Shown: positions 5,267 through 16,406 of the stretch, one piece after another | Layout of the letters: the number at the start of each line of letters is the position of its first letter | Numbering within the stretch: the first letter of the stretch is position 1 | DNA from: Pigoraptor vietnamica | Taxonomy: Eukaryota > Opisthokonta > Filasterea | DNA length: 22,149 bases | Direction: 5' to 3' | NCBI GenBank assembly: GCA_943704525.1 | Contig: CALSCQ010002507.1 | Coordinates: forward strand, 1 to 22,149 | Translations under genes and position numbers: made by a program | Notes under the pieces: generated by a model | What the model was told of the DNA's origin: nothing | Database searches by the model: none | What the model saw: the letters and a program-made list of their open reading frames with translations, nothing else

Positions 5267-8200
5267 ATGGATCCGATGGATACGTCTGAGCCTGGCGTGC
5301 AGTCTGCTGTGGACGAGAAGCTTCAGGAGAAAGGTGGGCATCTCTTTTTTGTGTGTGTGGTTTGTGGCGTGAGTGTGAGTGCGTGTGTGTGCGCGCGCGT
5401 GTGTGTGTGTGTGTGTGGGTAGTGCGCATGAAGCTGTGCTTGAAGTTTAGAACGCCGCATGAATGCGCAGCGTTTGCGGGATGTGTCTGTTGTCGTGTTG
5501 TGATTTTTTATTTTGGAAGATGTTGAGATTGTTTTTTTTTGGTAACATCTTGTTCTCTGTGGTTTATTGTCGCTGTACGCTGCTGTGAGGCGCTTTCCGT
5601 ATGTTTGGCGTGTCGCTGTGTTCTGCGTGTGGATCCGGCCATCCACTCTGCCCATCGGCGATTCCACTTGGGTTGCTTCCACTGCGTGCCACTAATCGAC
5701 TTCTGCCCGTCCCGCAGCGCGCAAATGGCAGCAGCTGCAGTCGAAGCGCTACAGCGAGAAGCGCAAGTTTGGCTATCAGGAGATGCAGAAGGAGGACATG
5801 CCTCCGGAGCACGTGCGCAAGATCATCCGCGACCACGGCGACATGACCAACAAGAAGTTTCGCCACGACAAGCGCGTCTACCTCGGCGCCCTCAAGTGAG
5901 TCGACTCACGCATCTCTATTTGTGCATGTCATTTTTTTGTGCATATCTTATTTGTGTACTCTTAAGGCGTGCGATCGAACACTTTGTGCGCCATCGAATG
6001 CCTTGAGTGCATCCACGCCTGCGCGTGACGTGACTCGACGCGTTATGTTTTCCGTCACTGTCACTGATTTGTTTCGTCGCCTCCAGGTACGTCCCGCACG
6101 CCGTGCTCAAGCTACTCGAGAACATGCCGATGCCCTGGGAGCAGGTCCGCGACGTCAAGGCGCTGTACCACGTGACCGGCGCCATCACGTTCATCGACGA
6201 GACGCCCAAGGTCATCGAGCCGGTGTATCTCGCACAGTGGGGCACGATGTGGATCATGATGCGCCGCGAGAAGCGCGACCGTCGCCACTTTAAGCGCATG
6301 CGTTTCCCGCCCTTCGACGACGAGGAGCCTCCGCTCGATTTTGGCGACAACGTGCTGGACGTCGAGCCGCTCGAGGCGATTCAGATGGAGCTAGATCCCG
6401 ACGAAGATGCCGCGGTGAAGGAGTGGCTGTACGAGCACAAGCCGCTCTCCGAGTCGAAGTTTGTGAACGGGCCGAGCTATCGCTTCTGGCGGCTGAACCT
6501 CCCGATCCGCGCGACGCTGTTTCGCCTCGCCAACCAGCTTCTTTCGGACATTGCCGACGACAACTACTTCTACCTGTTCGACCTCCAGTCGTTCTTCACG
6601 GCCAAGGCGCTGAACATGGCCATTCCCGGCGGCCCCAAGTTCGAGCCCCTGTACCGCGACGTCGACACGATGAACGAGGACTGGAACGAGTTCAACGACA
6701 TCAACAAGATCATCATTCGGCAGCCCATCCGCACCGAGTACCGCATCGCGTTTCCCTACCTCTACAACTCGCTCCCGCGGTCGGTCCACCTCTCGCGCTA
6801 CCACCACCCGACGGTGCAGTACATCAAGACGGAGGACCCCGACCTCCCGGCCTTCTACTTTGACCCGCTGATCAACCCGATCTCGCACCGCACGACGCTC
6901 GCGGGTCGCTTTGAGGAGCCGACGATCGACGACGACGACGACTTTGTGCTGCCGGAGGGCGTCGAGCCGTTCCTCGCGTCGACGCCGCTGTACACGGACA
7001 ACACGGCGAACGGGATTGCGCTGCTGTGGGCGCCGCGGCCCTTCTGCCTGCGGTCAGGACAGACGCGCCGCGCGCTCGACGTGCCCCTCGTCAAGTCGTG
7101 GTACCGCGAGCACGTGCCGCCGGGCCAGCCCGTGAAGGTCCGCGTGTCGTATCAGAAGCTTCTCAAGTGCTTCGTCATCAACGCGCTGCACCACCGGCCC
7201 CCGAAGGCGCTCAAGAAGCGCTACCTCTTCCGGTCGTTCAAGGCAACGAAGTTTTTCCAGACGACGACGCTCGACTGGGTGGAGGTCGGCCTGCAGGTGT
7301 GCCGGCAGGGCTACAACATGCTCAACCTGCTCATCCACCGCAAGAACTTGAACTACCTCCACCTCGACTACAACTTCAACCTCAAGCCCGTCAAGACGCT
7401 GACGACGAAGGAGCGCAAGAAGTCGCGCTTCGGCAACGCCTTCCACCTTTGCCGCGAGATCCTTCGCATGACCAAGCTGATCGTCGACTCGCACGTGCAG
7501 TACCGCCTCGGCAACGTCGACGCGTACCAGCTCGCCGACGGCCTGCAGTACATTTTCGCGCACGTCGGCCAGCTGACGGGCATGTACCGCTACAAGTACA
7601 AGCTCATGCGGCAGATTCGCATGTGCAAGGACCTCAAGCACGTCATCTACTACCGCTTCAACACGGGCCCCGTCGGCAAGGGTCCCGGCGTCGGCTTCTG
7701 GGCGCCGAGCTGGCGCGTGTGGATGTTCTTCCTACGCGGCATCGTGCCGCTACTCGAGCGGTGGCTCGGCAACCTCCTCGCGAGGCAGTTTGAGGGGCGC
7801 ACGTCGAAGGGCGTCGCGAAGACGGTGACGAAGCAGCGCGTCGAGTCGCACTTTGACCTCGAGCTGCGCGCGGCGGTGATGCACGACATTCTCGACATGA
7901 TGCCGGAGGGCATCCGCCAGAACAAGGCGCGCGCGATCCTCCAGCACCTGAGCGAGGCGTGGCGGTGCTGGAAGGCCAACATCCCGTGGAAGGTCCCGGG
8001 CCTCCCGACGCCGATCGAGAACATGATTCTCCGCTACGTCAAGATGAAGGCCGACTGGTGGACGAACACGGCGCACTACCAGCGCGAGCGCATCAAGCGC
8101 GGCGCGACGGTCGACAAGACGGTGTGCAAGAAGAACCTCGGTCGCCTCACGCGCCTCTTCCTCAAGGCGGAGCAGGAGCGGCAGCACAACTACCTCAAGG

Positions 8201-10197
8201 ACGGGCCGTACATCACGGCGGAGGAGGCCGTCGCGATCTACACGACGACGGTTCACTGGCTCGAGAGCCGCCGGTTCTCGCCGATCCCGTTCCCGCCGCT
8301 CAGCTACAAGCACGACACGAAGCTGCTCATCCTCGCGCTCGAGCGGCTGCGCGAGGCGTACAGCGTCAAGTCGAAGCTGAACCAGAGCCAGCGCGAGGAG
8401 CTCGGGCTCATTGAGCAGGCATACGACAACCCGCACGAGGCGCTCAGCCGCATCAAGCGGCACCTTCTCACGCAGCGCGCGTTCAAGGAGGTCGGGATTG
8501 AGTTTATGGACGTTTACTCGCACCTCATCCCCGTCTACGACGTCGAGCCGCTCGAGAAGATCACGGACGCGTACCTCGACCAGTACCTGTGGTTCGAGGG
8601 CGACAAGCGGCGCCTGTTCCCCGCGTGGATCAAGCCCGCCGACACGGAGCCACCGCCGCTTCTCGTGTACAAGTGGTGCCAGGGGATCAACAACCTGCAG
8701 GACGTGTGGGACACGGCGGAGGGCGAGTGCAACGTCATGCTCGAGGCGACGTTCGAGAAGATGAACGAGAAGATGGACCTGACGCTGCTCAACCGCCTCC
8801 TCCGCCTGATCGTCGACCACAACATCGCGGACTACATGACGGCGAAGAACAACATTGTCGTTAACTACAAGGACATGAACCACACGAACTCGTACGGGCT
8901 CATCCGCGGCCTCCAGTTTGCGTCGTTCATCACGCAGTACTACGGCCTCGTGCTCGACCTCCTCGTGCTCGGGCTCCAGCGCGCCGCGGAGATGGCCGGT
9001 CCGCCGCAGCTGCCGAACGACTTTCTCACGTTCCAGGACGCCGCGACCGAGACGCGCCACCCGATCCGCCTCTACTCGCGCTACATTGACCGCGTGCACA
9101 TGCTGCTGCGGTTCTCGGCGGAGGACTCGCGCGACCTTATCCAGCGGTACCTGACGGAGCATCCCGACCCGAACAACGAGAATATCGTCGGCTACAACAA
9201 CAAGAAGTGCTGGCCGCGCGACGCCCGCATGCGCCTCATGAAGCACGACGTGAACCTCGGCCGCGCCGTGTTCTGGGACATCAAGAACCGCCTGCCGCGC
9301 TCGGTGACGACGATCGAGTGGGACAACGCGTTCGTCTCGGTCTACTCGAAGGACAACCCCAACCTCCTCTTCGACATGTGCGGGTTCGAGGTGCGCATCC
9401 TCCCGAAGTGCCGCATCACGGCGGGCGAGATGACGACACGCGACGGCGTGTGGAACCTCCAGAACGAGGCGACGAAGGAGCGCACGGCGCAGGCGTTCCT
9501 GCGCGTCGACGACGACTCGCTCGAGAAGTTCAACAACCGCATCCGCCAGGTGCTCATGGCGTCCGGTTCGACGACGTTCACCAAGATCATCAACAAGTGG
9601 AACACGTCGCTGATCGGCCTGATGACGTACTTTCGCGAGGCCGTCGTCAACACGCAGGAGCTCCTCGACCTCCTCGTCAAGTGCGAGAACAAGATCCAGA
9701 CGCGTGTCAAGATCGGCCTCAACTCGAAGATGCCCAGCCGCTTCCCGCCCGTCGTCTTCTACACGCCGAAGGAACTCGGCGGTCTCGGCATGCTCTCGAT
9801 GGGCCACGTGCTCATTCCGCAGTCGGACCTCCGCTGGTCGAAGCAGACGGACGCCGGCGTGACGCACTTTCGTTCGGGCATGTCGCACGAGGAGGACCAG
9901 CTGATCCCGAACCTCTACCGCTACATCCAGCCGTGGGAGTCGGAGTTTATCGACTCGCAGCGCGTGTGGGCCGAGTACGCGCTCAAGCGGCAGGAGGCGC
10001 TCGCGCAGAACCGTCGGCTGACGCTCGAGGACCTCCAGGACTCGTGGGACCGCGGCATTCCGCGCATCAACACGCTCTTCCAGAAGGATCGGCACACGCT
10101 CGCGTACGACAAGGGGTGGCGCGTGCGGACGGACTTCAAGCAGTACCAAGTCATGAAGCAGAACCCGTTCTGGTGGACGCACCAGCGCCACGACGGC

Positions 10198-10235
<38 letters not shown>

Positions 10236-12822
10236 CCAGGCGCTCGGCGGCGTGGAGGGCATCCTCGAGCACACGCTCTTCAAGGGGACGTACTTCCCCA
10301 CATGGGAAGGTCTCTTCTGGGAGAAGGCGAGCGGCTTCGAGGAGAGCATGAAGTACAAGAAGCTCACGAACGCGCAGCGCAGCGGTCTCAACCAGATCCC
10401 GAACCGCCGCTTTACGCTGTGGTGGTCGCCGACGATCAACCGCGCGAACGTCTACGTCGGCTTCCAGGTCCAGCTCGACCTCACGGGCATCTTCATGCAC
10501 GGCAAGATTCCGACGCTCAAGATCTCGCTCATCCAGATTTTCCGCGCGCATCTGTGGCAGAAGATCCACGAGTCGGTCGTGATGGATCTCTGCCAGGTCT
10601 TCGACCAGGAGCTCGACGCGCTCGAGATCGAGACGGTGCAGAAGGAGACGATCCACCCGCGCAAGTCGTACAAGATGAACTCGTCGTGCGCCGACATTCT
10701 CCTGTTCGCTGCGTACAAGTGGAACATCTCGAAGCCGTCGCTGCTCGCCGACACGAAGGACACGATGGACTCGACGACGAGCCAGAAGTACTGGCTGGAC
10801 GTGCAGCTCCGCTGGGGCGACTACGACAGCCACGACGTCGAGCGCTACGCGCGCGCCAAGTTCCTCGACTACACGACGGACAACATGAGCATCTACCCGT
10901 CGCCGACCGGCGTGCTGATCGCGATGGACCTCGCGTACAACCTCTACTCTGCGTACGGCAACTGGTTCCCGGGCATGAAGCCGCTGATCCAGCAGGCGAT
11001 GGGCAAGATCATGAAGGCGAACCCCGCGCTCTACGTGCTGCGGGAGCGCGTGCGCAAGGCCCTCCAGCTCTACTCGTCCGAGCCGACCGAGCCGTACCTC
11101 TCGTCGCAAAACTACGGCGAGCTCTTTTCGAACCAGATTGTGTGGTTTGTCGACGACACGAACGTGTACCGCGTGACGATCCACAAGACGTTCGAGGGCA
11201 ACCTGACGACGAAGCCGATCAACGGCGCCATCTTCATCTTCAACCCGCGCACCGGCCAGCTGTTCCTCAAGATCATCCACACGTCGGTGTGGGCCGGGCA
11301 GAAGCGTCTCGGGCAGCTCGCCAAGTGGAAGACGGCCGAAGAAGTCGCGGCGCTCATCCGCGGTCTCCCCGTCGAAGAGCAGCCGAAGCAGATCATCGTG
11401 ACGCGCAAGGGCATGCTCGATCCGCTCGAGGTCCACCTCCTCGACTTTCCGAACATCGTCATCAAGGGGAGCGAGCTCCAGCTGCCCTTCCAGGCGTGCC
11501 TCAAGATTGAGAAGTTTGGCGACCTCATCCTCAAGGCGACCGAGCCCAAGATGGTCCTCTTCAACCTTTACGACGACTGGCTCAAGTCGATCTCGTCGTA
11601 CACGGCGTTCAGCCGCCTCATCCTCATCCTACGCGCGCTCCACGTCAACAACGAGAAGACCAAGGTCATCCTCAAGCCGGACAAGACGACGATCACGGAG
11701 CCCCACCACATCTGGCCGACGCTCTCGGACGAGCAGTGGATCGCCGTCGAAGTCGCGCTCAAGGACCTCATCCTCGCCGACTACGGCAAGAAGAACAACG
11801 TCAACGTCGCGTCGCTCACGCAGTCGGAGATTCGCGACATCATCCTCGGCATGGAGATTTCGGCGCCGTCGCAGCAGCGCCAGCAGATTGCGGAGATTGA
11901 GAAGCAGACGAAGGAGCAGTCGCAGCTGACGGCGACGACGACGCGCACGGTGAACGTCCACGGCGACGAGATTATCGTCGCGACGACGACCAACTACGAG
12001 GCGCAGACGTTCTCGTCGAAGACGGAGTGGCGCGTGCGCGCGATTTCGGCGACGAACCTGCACCTTCGCACGCAGCACATCTACGTGTCGTCGGACGACA
12101 TCAAGGAGACGGGCTATACGTACATTCTCCCCAAGAACCTCCTCAAGAAGTTCATCACGATTTCGGACCTGCGCACGCAGATCGCCGGGTACCTCTACGG
12201 CGTGAGCCCGCCCGACAACCCGCAGGTCAAGGAGATTCGCGCCGTCGTGCTCGTCCCGCAGCTCGGCACGCACCAGACGGTCACGCTGCCGAACCAGCTC
12301 CCGTCGCACGAGTACCTGCGCGACCTCGAGCCGCTCGGGTGGATCCACACGCAGCCCAACGAACTGCCGCAGCTGTCGCCGCAGGACGTGACGACGCACG
12401 CCAAGATCATGGCGGACAACGCGGCGTGGGACGTCGAGAAGACGATCGTCATGACGTGCAGCTTCACGCCCGGTTCGTGCTCGCTCACGGCGTACCGCCT
12501 CACGCCCTCCGGGTACGAGTGGGGCCGGAACAACAAGGACAGCGGCAACAACCCGCAGGGCTACCTCCCCTCGCACTACGAGCGCGTGCAGATGGTGCTG
12601 TCGGACCGGTTCATGGGCTTCTTCATGGTGCCCTCGGACGGCGTGTGGAACTACAACTTCCTCGGCCACAGGCACCAGATGAGCATGCGCTACGAGCTGC
12701 AGCTGGCGTACCCGAAGGAGTTTTACCACGAGATACACCGCCCCGCCCACTTTCTCAAGTTCACCGACATTGAGGAGGAGGGCTTTGGCGTCGGGGCCGA
12801 CCACGACGACGCGTTCGCGTGA
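5267..12822 (+). CDS. PRPF8: Pre-mRNA-processing factor 8 (U5 snRNP scaffold)
   Basis: Prp8 is the scaffold of the spliceosome's catalytic centre. It contacts U5 and U6 RNA and both splice sites, and its C-terminus controls the Brr2 helicase. Exons 5267-5333, 5718-5895 and 6087-12822 join in phase to 2326 residues (human about 2335). Near identity to the recalled human protein is visible throughout, for example [38 protein letters not shown]-like NSSCADILL and [20 protein letters not shown]. By family order the PRO8NT, PROCN, RRM-like, U5- and U6-binding, RT/endonuclease-like, RNase H-like and MPN domains are all present. The RNase H-like finger [20 protein letters not shown] begins near residue 1770. 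The N-terminus lacks the proline-rich leader seen in human. The ATG has good context (aacATGG). No intein is present. Codon bias is strong (ACG, TCG and C/G-ending codons). Both introns lie within the first 250 nt of coding sequence. Confidence 0.98.
5334..5717 (+). other. PRPF8 intron 1 with GT-rich tract
   Basis: 384 nt, donor gtgggc and acceptor cccgcag. It splits an Ala codon between EK and RKWQQ. Positions 5351-5418 are GT/GC-rich, starting about 17 nt after the donor. Short T runs occur at 5345 and 5532. The rest carries no recognisable element. Confidence 0.85.
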
Positions 12823-13630: not shown

Positions 13631-16406
13631 ATGGAAGATGCAAAATCGGGAGAGCGGAGCGGCGGGGGTTTAGGTGGTGCGGCGGCGGACAACACCACGA
13701 TGACGGTCGATCGCGAAAGCTCGGGGGATTCGCGCGGCGAGAAGCACGCTCGCGACGAAGGTGCGCTCGTCTCAAGCGGCGATCAGCCCTCGAAGAGGCG
13801 GGCGTATTCTTCGTCGTCAAACGGCGCACCCTCTGAAATGCCAAACGAGGGCGATGCGGGACCTGACGCGGCGAGCGTCGCGATCGCTATCGAAAAGAGC
13901 GGCGCGGGCCTGGGTGGCGTGGCGGGGCTCCCCGCGTTGCCTCTGAGCGCGCAGCTCATGCACGCGTACGGAGGGAGTGGGCGCGCGCGTGTGTCGCAAC
14001 AAATTCTCGTGCGATTCATGAGCCAGCTCTCGCTGTGCATGAAGTCGCAGTCGTTTTCTGCGGGGGACGTCGTGTTTACGTCCGGCGACGCGTCTTCGGC
14101 CATGTACTTTATTCGATCGGGCGGCGTGAACGTGTGCGACGTGGACGGGAAAACAGTGCTCGACACGATGTCTGCGGGAAGCTTTTTCGGTGGGTTTGTC
14201 GCGTCGAGCGGGCGCTATTGGGTTTGTTGTCTTCTATGGTCACGTGTGCATGCAGACAGTTCGCGCATGGGTTTAAATTTTTGCGTGCGCTCTTGTTTTT
14301 TTTTGTGCACATACACGCGCACACACACGCACACATAAACGGGCGCGCAAGCACATGCCCGCACAAGTACACACACGCACACTCAGACACACTACACAAA
14401 CAGGGTAACGCACAATCAGAGACGCACACTCACGTCACACTGCGCCACAAAATACTGACGCAATTTGCTCGCCGTCGCCCGCAGGCGAGGTGGGCCTCCT
14501 CCTGGGGATCCCGCGCGTGTGCACCGTTCGCACGTCCAAGGACAGCGAGCTGTTTGTGCTCCAACGCGACGACTTCTTTTCGACCCTCCTCGAGTTCCCA
14601 CAGGTCGCCAGCCACATTCAGTCGGTTGGCAACGAGAGGGTGAAACTGCGAGAGCGCTTTCGGTCACTCGCGTTCTTGAGTCTGGACGATCGCACGTCGT
14701 CCACGTCGCACGCGAAGAGCGAGCCCACGCACGCTCCGTCCGAGGGCGCCGGTGAGGCCGCGCCGACCGTTACGCCCCGCGGCGACGCCACGGGGTCCAC
14801 TTCGGCGTTCATGCGGGAGCTCATTCTCGCGATTGTCGGCAACACGCCGAACAGGGTCGACTCGTTCGACAACATTTGCACGCGAATTGCGGGCGTGTTT
14901 CCCGAGATCCACCAGCAGAGCGATTGGCTCAACGGCGTCCGCAGCGCCCTCCGCTCGAACGACTGCTTTGTCCGCTCGGGCGACATGTGGACGACGATTT
15001 TGCCGCAGCTGAAAGGCCTGTTATCCGACGCCGCGGCTGCGGGAGGCGCCTTGCGTTGGGAGCACGCACTCGTGGCCCGGCCGGCCGAGAGTGCGACGGG
15101 CGCCGCCTCCGGGGTGTCTGGGACAAACGCAGCGGGCGATGGATTGTTGCCGCACCAGCGGCAAGAGACGGGGGCGGGCACGCGAAAACACAAGCGCGGG
15201 TCCAAGGGGACTGCGTCGTCGCAGACAGGAGCGAGTCAAATGGGCCCTCCGTCCGGACAGGGACAGCCCCCGCCGCTGCAACCCGCGCTTGGCGTTACCG
15301 GCCAGACGCAGCCGCCGCCGATTTCGCAGCACTACGGCTTACCGTCCCTGGGTTTCGGAGCCCCCCAAGTGTCGGTGCCGGGGTACCGGCCCCTCTTCGC
15401 AGGGCCCGTCGAGCAGATGTCATACCCGGGCAGCTACATGCAGGCCGGTTCCGCGATGGCGCCGGGCGCGATGATGCCGTCCATACCCACACGGCCTACG
15501 GGTCTCGCTTCGGCCGTTGCGATGAGCGCCACGGGCGGAATGGCGCCCCAGGGCCTGTCGTGGGGACCCGTCCCGCACTGGCCCACCGCAGGGCCGCCGT
15601 ACGCGTCGTATGCGACTCCGGCGCCGGAGATGTACGACGCCTCGTTGATATACCGCGGAATGGCGCCGGTGCAGCCAGGAATGCAGGCGCAACAGCCGTC
15701 GACGGTACCACAAACGCTCCCCGCCCGACCGCCCGCACCCCCTACGCCGCGCTCGGAGGCGTCCTCGACGGGGCCTGCGCCGGCGAACTTGAGCGAGCCG
15801 CACGTCAAGGAGGTGTCTTACTCGGTCGCAAAAATTCTGGCGGAGCTGTCAAGTTCGGGCGCGCGGCAGCCCGAGTTTCGGATATTGCTCGTGGAGGACA
15901 ACGAGATTGCGCAGCGTGCGGCAGCGAAGATCATCCGGGACAGCGGCTTTGCGTTTGACGTGGCTGCGAACGGGAAGGAGGCGCTGGAGCGGATGGAGAC
16001 GAGCCGGTACTCGCTCGTGCTGATGGACTGCCAAATGCCGACAATGGACGGTTACACGGCGACAAAGTGGGTTTTACTCCTGCCGCTGTGTGCGTCGCGC
16101 GCCCCCCTGTTGCACGCGTTCCCATCTCTCTCTCTGTGTGTGTGCGGTGCATGTCGTCATGATCTGTCGTGGATAGCGTCGATTATCGTGCAGTAACACC
16201 ATGTCTCCGTGCAACACGGCAGGTACATTCGCATGTACGAAGGGTCGACGGGCGCCCACACACCGGTCGTTGCGCTGACGGCATTTGCGGCAGAAGACGT
16301 TAAGACGCTCTGCTTCGAGTCGGGAATGGACGGCTTCATGCTCAAACCGATGAGCAAGCACGCGCTGAAGGACGTCGTAAGCAAGTGGGCGCGGCTGCGA
16401 ATGTGA
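13631..16406 (+). CDS. Cyclic-nucleotide-binding / forkhead-like / response-regulator protein
   Basis: Exons 13631-14189, 14485-16066 and 16223-16406 give 774 residues. Residues 1-110 are Gly/Ser-rich with a possible nuclear signal (PSKRR). Residues about 125-230 are a cyclic-nucleotide-binding domain. Its phosphate cassette FGEVGLLLGIPRVCTV keeps the Glu and Arg that bind the ribose and phosphate; the first intron cuts inside FGE. Residues about 293-360 look like a forkhead winged helix: FDNICTRIAGVFPEI, then WLNGVRSALRSNDCF, then W before a final strand. Next come a basic patch (RKHKRGSK) and about 280 residues rich in Pro, Gly, Met and Ala. Residues about 650-774 are a receiver domain with the acidic pair in LLVEDNE, phosphoacceptor Asp701 in LMDCQMPTMDG, Thr in VALTAF and Lys in MLKPM. 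No histidine-kinase domain or membrane segment is seen. I infer a nuclear regulator combining cyclic nucleotide and phosphorelay input. The start ATG (13631) has A/G-rich context; an upstream in-frame ATG (13496) would add 45 hydrophobic residues and is less likely. Confidence 0.88.
14307..14398. repeat. CA-rich tract in intron 1 of the CNB-forkhead-REC gene
   Basis: The 295-nt intron (14190-14484, donor gtgggt, acceptor cgcag) contains a T run near 14296 followed by imperfect CACACG/CACAC repeats. It resembles tracts in other introns of this window. Confidence 0.75.

Follow-up and report, generated by a model that had tools for sequence, protein, structure and literature searches.

Gene content and structure of the locus

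The window, i.e., the whole stretch of 22,149 nucleotides that was analysed, carries genes for Prp8, Cluap1/IFT38, a mitochondrial carrier and an ABCA-like transporter, together with a partial kinase gene. Prp8 was found at 6034-12822 on the + strand as one stop-to-stop frame of 2262 codons, and it lies beside intron-split neighbours. By Prp8, PDB chain 9r8v was considered as a near relative and rejected, since it aligns with the query in two stretches, so that its higher score carries no information on kinship; the relevant paper deals with the human spliceosome (PMC13332222). Cluap1 is an intraflagellar-transport protein and points to a ciliated organism.

A spliced gene was predicted on the + strand. 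Its three exons, i.e., 13631-14189, 14485-16066 and 16223-16406, join in frame to 2325 nt, encode 774 amino acids and end with a stop codon at 16406. The features of the gene are as follows.

13631..14189, + strand: exon 1, residues 1-187, an N-terminus of low complexity rich in Gly, Ala and Ser, followed by the first half of the cyclic-nucleotide-binding domain (CNB)
14190..14484, + strand: intron 1, GT...CAG, 295 bp, within the CNB phosphate-binding cassette
14485..16066, + strand: exon 2, one open frame that holds the rest of the CNB, the forkhead-like domain, the low-complexity linker and the receiver's first half
14796..15008, + strand: forkhead-like domain, residues 291-361, by Pfam PF00250, phmmer against PDB, own-genome profile and hhalign
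15021..15860, + strand: linker, residues 366-645, rich in Ala/Pro/Gly/Ser/Gln
16067..16222, + strand: intron 2, GT...CAG, 156 bp, within the receiver
16223..16406, + strand: exon 3, the rest of the receiver, with T733 and K755, and the stop codon

The frame of exon 1 is open from 13382, and the first Met in its translation lies at 13631. Intron 1 divides the codon of Gly187, and its removal restores the FGE...PR motif. Inside this intron, third-position GC fell to 0.45 and the coding scores were negative. Removal of intron 2 restores DGYTATKYIR and the full Response_reg match. The gene is predicted to be transcribed and spliced in this form.

Domain arrangement

A cyclic-nucleotide-binding domain, a forkhead-like region and a receiver were confirmed in one spliced frame. 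This order, from CNB through the forkhead-like region to the receiver, had been proposed in the first-pass annotation, and it was borne out by the spliced gene model, Pfam and the open exon 2, which alone unites parts of all three domains and holds the forkhead region whole. In the Pfam check of the three regions, cNMP_binding was found at residues 140-220 (E=2.5e-19, 69.5 bits against a cut-off of 27.5), Forkhead at residues 298-351 (E=8e-4, 19.9 bits, below the curated cut-off of 27 bits) and Response_reg at residues 653-766 (E=1e-24). A fourth, weak match, i.e., PDE8A_N (0.012), overlapped the receiver.

No CRP-type helix-turn-helix was found after the CNB, and between the CNB and the receiver Pfam reported only Forkhead when the whole protein was searched at E<=10. 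HisKA and HATPase had no Pfam match in the protein. About 45 residues separate the end of the CNB from the forkhead-like domain, and the receiver lies about 290 residues beyond the latter.

Cyclic-nucleotide-binding domain

The phosphate cassette FGE...PR, described as intact in the first pass, was verified residue by residue with a script (F186, G187, E188, P196 and R197). Searching PDB with the CNB gave 159 matching sequences at E<=0.001. The best 60 of these 159 were headed by apicomplexan cGMP-dependent kinases, followed by PKA regulatory subunits, SthK/CNG/HCN channels and EPAC. The rows labelled Crp/Fnr among the best 60 of 159 were the SthK channel, and no CRP regulator proper was among them. 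The label CAP-type, given to the domain at first, was not borne out by these matches, and from its sequence the CNB does not look CAP-type.

The domain resembles the CNBs of PKG, PKA regulatory subunits and CNG channels in its intact cassette and in its best PDB matches (best 60 of 159). It differs from them in that a single CNB match is present and is joined to a DNA-binding-like domain, not to a kinase, GEF or channel.

Receiver and linker

All key residues of the receiver are present, as checked by script, i.e., E657, D658, D701, T733, F735 and K755. The domain is therefore complete, as it had been described. Among the best 60 of 66 PDB rows for the receiver, histidine-kinase receivers lead. 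The receiver resembles those of hybrid histidine kinases, whereas this protein has no HisKA or HATPase match.

The receiver (window 15882-16403) was nearer to the matched bacterial receivers than to the own-genome receivers compared. The best bacterial locus showed 45% identity over 119 aa (117 bits), with the best six at 43-46%; the best own-genome receiver showed 37% over 120 aa (82 bits), with the best six at 34-39%. A FastTree tree of the window receiver with 12 own receivers placed it on a long branch with no close partner (nearby support 0.73-0.82), and no weight is given to this tree. An origin separate from the own-genome receivers is possible, and the identity comparison gives only a hint of it, because the bacterial set was picked by matching this query in 84,980 genomes.

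The linker is composed of Ala (15%), Pro (15%), Gly (12%) and Ser (11%), among others. Judged by eye, it is a candidate disordered or activation region, and the basic stretch RKHKRGSK at 420-427 is a candidate NLS-like signal.

Forkhead-like region

The helix-3 pattern that had been noticed in the first pass was found from W334 to F348, i.e., W334-x-N336-x-V-R339-x-x-L342-x-x-N345-x-C347-F348. It is followed by a short wing and by W355-T356. When the region was excised (77 residues), the Forkhead match gave 25.6 bits (E=1.3e-5), which is likewise under the Pfam cut-off. The phmmer search against PDB gave 19 rows at E<=10, all on the forkhead region. Eighteen of the 19 were forkhead proteins, two of which (labelled Genesis and 'transcription factor') we assume to be forkheads, and one was labelled eIF3b. 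The best row was HNF-3beta (FOXA2), at 3.2e-4.

Forkheads of the own genome gave similar results. A profile of eight of them scored the region at 21.6 bits, and the best of 5000 shuffles of the region scored 9.7. By hhalign against seven own forkheads the region reached 94.4%, and one scrambled copy (an exact permutation) reached 0.2%. Identity to single own forkheads was 16-22 of 68-73 aligned positions. By sequence homology, the conclusion that the middle region is a divergent forkhead-like domain holds. Of the original claim of a forkhead DNA-binding domain, the homology part stands on Pfam, the own profile and hhalign; the rest is qualified, since the score is under the cut-off and the helix-3 His and wing Lys are missing.

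AlphaFold single-sequence models, built without relatives, were of low confidence, with mean pLDDT of 57.3 for residues 288-372 and 57.9 for residues 292-360. Both had helices near the expected H1, H2 and H3 and no wing strands. Foldseek and VIA-align searches with these two models, which are too poor to judge the fold, returned no significant match and no forkhead row.

The domain is like FOX factors in its profile match over helices 1-3 and in the W-T after the wing. It is unlike them in having no K-P-x-x-S start, no helix-3 His and no wing Lys, and in being joined to a CNB and a receiver.

Search for the same architecture

The genome comprises 32.5 Mb in 1395 contigs. Its rows, which are exons or parts and not genes, so that the counts are lower bounds, numbered 40 for receivers, 16 for forkheads, 47 for CNBs, 96 for cyclases, 19 for HisKA (17 over the cut-off) and two for HPt (one over the cut-off). 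The receiver, forkhead and CNB rows were placed on 34, 10 and 33 contigs, respectively, and the window contig, C1035, was the only one in more than one list. The whole protein was also searched against its own genome, giving 38 rows. Three were the gene itself, and residues 291-361 were covered by none of the remaining 35.

Exon 2 was compared with viral contigs, which gave four pattern matches and no relative, and with 84,980 prokaryote genomes, which gave 83 relatives, of which 80 were kept. All 80 listed matches begin at or beyond query residue 358 (protein residue 545), i.e., they cover the linker and receiver only. When these 80 loci were searched by tblastn (E<=1), the forkhead piece had no match and the CNB piece had a single one (E 0.46). 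The viral contigs, the prokaryote genomes and the own genome thus yielded no relative that shares this architecture.

In open-licence papers, judged by titles and the starts of abstracts, a forkhead joined to a receiver or CNB was not found, which is weak evidence of novelty. The available parts of PMC3493443, PMC7098662 and PMC4558063 hold nothing on a CNB-forkhead-receiver architecture.

Comparison with known systems

Bacterial CRP/FNR proteins place a cyclic-nucleotide-type sensor beside a DNA-binding domain of the winged-helix class. The logic is the same in the present protein, whereas its putative DNA-binding part is forkhead-like, its gene has two spliceosomal introns and a receiver is added.

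Fungal Skn7 combines an HSF (winged-helix) domain with a C-terminal receiver that is supplied by a histidine-kinase/HPt relay, and the receiver is described as important for its transcriptional activity (PMC11774045). A winged-helix DNA-binding domain, in this protein a predicted one that is forkhead-like by sequence, with a C-terminal receiver is what Skn7-type regulators and this protein have in common (PMC11774045). The differences are the forkhead-like domain in place of HSF and the extra N-terminal CNB.

RegA of Dictyostelium and Physarum joins a receiver and cAMP signalling in one protein (PMC11988041, PMC4758236). However, RegA hydrolyses cAMP by a phosphodiesterase domain, and the passages on this protein name no DNA-binding domain (PMC11988041, PMC4758236). 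Most Physarum response regulators are described as having no additional features, two as having leucine-rich repeats and two as RegA-like; the words forkhead and Fox are absent from the main text of that survey (PMC4758236).

Eukaryotic receivers had been framed in the first-pass annotation as usually belonging to hybrid histidine kinases or simple regulators, with no described protein of this order. The second part stood as far as the papers and genomes searched go, since no match to this exact order was found in them. The first part did not, because winged-helix DNA-binding response regulators such as Skn7 are already known (PMC11774045). What appears to be new is that a forkhead stands where Skn7 has its HSF domain and that a CNB is present as well.

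Proposed function

The protein is proposed to be a eukaryotic DNA-binding response regulator of Skn7-like logic, with a forkhead-like domain in place of HSF and with a cyclic-nucleotide sensor. We assign this reading a probability of roughly 0.55. Its host would be a eukaryote that is probably single-celled and probably ciliated.

The CNB (about residues 125-245) would bind a cyclic nucleotide. Its C-terminal helices, together with the short linker, would then affect how available the adjoining forkhead-like domain (291-361) is. This domain is predicted to bind DNA with altered specificity. In the receiver (653-766), D701 would be phosphorylated by a hybrid histidine kinase via an HPt protein. 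This phosphorylation may alter receiver pairing or activation-domain contacts across the linker 366-645. The nucleotide is expected to act on DNA binding and the phosphate on pairing or activation, because the Skn7 receiver is important for transcriptional activity (PMC11774045). The whole protein would thus be a coincidence switch at its target genes between cyclic-nucleotide signalling and a His-Asp phosphorelay. That the protein is nuclear, binds DNA and a ligand and is phosphorylated, with events in this order, is inferred.

Both inputs probably exist in the organism, since cyclase, histidine-kinase and HPt matches were found in the same genome. It is reasonable to consider the protein a transcription factor that would read cAMP/cGMP and a phosphorelay. 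A further reading can be put forward tentatively, i.e., a forkhead transcription factor under direct chemical control by two inputs, with a cyclic nucleotide acting at one end and a His-Asp phosphorelay at the other. Its host would be a ciliated protist, probably near animals.

Alternative explanations

In forkhead domains, the helix-3 Asn and His contact bases. Of 23 positions invariant in the reference own forkheads (seven of the eight aligned; C1067 was left out as divergent, and the C686 forkhead was not in the alignment), 12 are kept, i.e., L299, I300, I317, P326, W334, N336, R339, L342, C347, F348, W355 and T356. The other 11 are changed, i.e., K1, P2, S5, A13, I14 (to Val), Y28, H51, N52, S54, L55 and the wing Lys K71. 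In helix 3, Asn336 is kept, H51 is replaced by S340, N52 by A341 and S54 by R343, and the HNLSL segment now reads SALRS. The helix-3 His and wing Lys, found in all seven reference forkheads, are missing, and the wing is about nine residues shorter than that of the own forkhead C1271. As the core is largely kept and the DNA-facing surface partly rebuilt, the specificity should differ from that of a canonical forkhead site. It is also possible that DNA binding was lost. The domain would then be a protein-interaction module, and the protein a signalling scaffold or co-regulator that senses both inputs. The change of the helix-3 His to Ser, the SALRS segment, the shortened wing and the absent wing Lys would all suit such a module, whereas helix 3 retains Asn336 and Arg339, and the core residues are also kept, as is the W-T that follows the wing, which argues against it. 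We consider this scaffold unlikely.

A second alternative is a DNA-binding response regulator of the Skn7 type with a ligand-free or structural CNB, in which the phosphorelay would be the only input. It is decidedly unlikely too. The sequence gives no ligand preference, and the CNB-homology domain of some eukaryotic channels, which binds no nucleotide, gives a precedent. On the other side, F-G-E...P-R is intact here, and F-G-E was also found in 12 of 15 own-genome CNBs that were aligned (the 15 taken from the 47 rows).

The middle domain could instead belong to another family, of winged-helix or other helical type, and resemble forkheads by chance or convergence. The sub-threshold Pfam score fits this, yet of the 24,736 Pfam models run against the excised region, two alone appeared at E<=10, i.e., Forkhead (1.3e-5) and DUF7430 (0.18). 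When all six frames of the 32.5 Mb genome were searched with the Forkhead HMM, the locus was listed at E=9.8e-4, and the window contig is absent from the 14 HSF rows of the genome. Another family is very improbable on these results. A Skn7/HSF identity was tried and rejected on the same HSF rows and because no HSF family was reported for the protein at E<=10, a null to be read with the HMMER filters, which drop most matches above about 0.1.

The coding sequence was examined for continuity. Exon 2 (1582 bp) is open for 526 codons, and in 300 base shuffles the longest open run had a mean of 170 and a maximum of 378. Third-position GC was 0.72-0.86 across ten segments of the coding sequence, including 0.74-0.86 in the seven segments of exon 2. 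With a codon model built from Prp8, frame 0 was the best of the three frames in all ten segments, also in the weakest one, i.e., the linker 366-460 (-0.39 against -0.45 and -0.70). Separate transcripts for the CNB and the receiver would require a hidden intron or promoter inside this continuous exon, and none of the donor motifs sought was found in residues 366-640. An artefact, i.e., a mis-assembly or a wrong gene model that fused parts of neighbouring genes, would suit a draft genome of so many contigs and the weak coding score of the linker segment, but with exon 2 in one frame at the third-position GC given above, no such donor motif in residues 366-640 and each intron cutting a domain whose two halves match in frame, it is extremely improbable.

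Meaning of a proposed forkhead with two inputs

Forkhead factors are normally controlled indirectly, via kinases and nuclear traffic. In the proposed response regulator, the sensor and the switch would be placed on the same chain, so that control of a forkhead by cAMP/cGMP and by a phosphorelay could be tested with purified protein. If the reading is true, it would be, to our knowledge, the first case of a forkhead linked directly both to a second messenger and to two-component signalling; we also know of no other eukaryotic response regulator with a cyclic-nucleotide-binding domain. Should the forkhead part prove to bind DNA, the finding would be of real interest.

Histidine kinases are reported as absent from Metazoa (PMC4758236). 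Forkheads, on the other hand, are central in Metazoa. A protein that joins the two, in a genome with cadherin repeats and a FOXP-like gene, would shed light on how the regulators of animals were connected before the loss of the phosphorelay.

Other features of the genome

Cyclic-nucleotide signalling is heavy in this genome, as seen from the 47 CNB rows, three of which lie close together on C535 and three on C987, and the 96 cyclase rows. Two receiver rows were found about 0.5 kb apart on one strand of C68 (47565-48425), possibly in a dual-receiver protein. Pairs of receiver rows with wider spacing were also found on C609, C1260, C72 and C960.

On C686 (L022/L144), a divergent forkhead gene lies directly downstream of a hybrid kinase on the same strand. 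HisKA of this kinase was found by profile search, whereas its PAS, HATPase and degenerate-looking receiver were recognized by eye. An FHA-like start of the forkhead gene was suspected by eye, and Pfam did not find one.

All 47 cadherin-repeat rows listed were placed on two contigs, i.e., C1328 (34677-47467) and C874 (60-4547), where they form long arrays. These repeats, together with the FOXP-like gene described next, hint that the organism may be a single-celled relative of animals. On C1151 (L010), a forkhead gene around 1501-1731 showed a FOXP coiled-coil match (PF16159, E 4.4e-12). A C2H2 finger was seen by eye in the same gene, which suggests a FOXP-type architecture.
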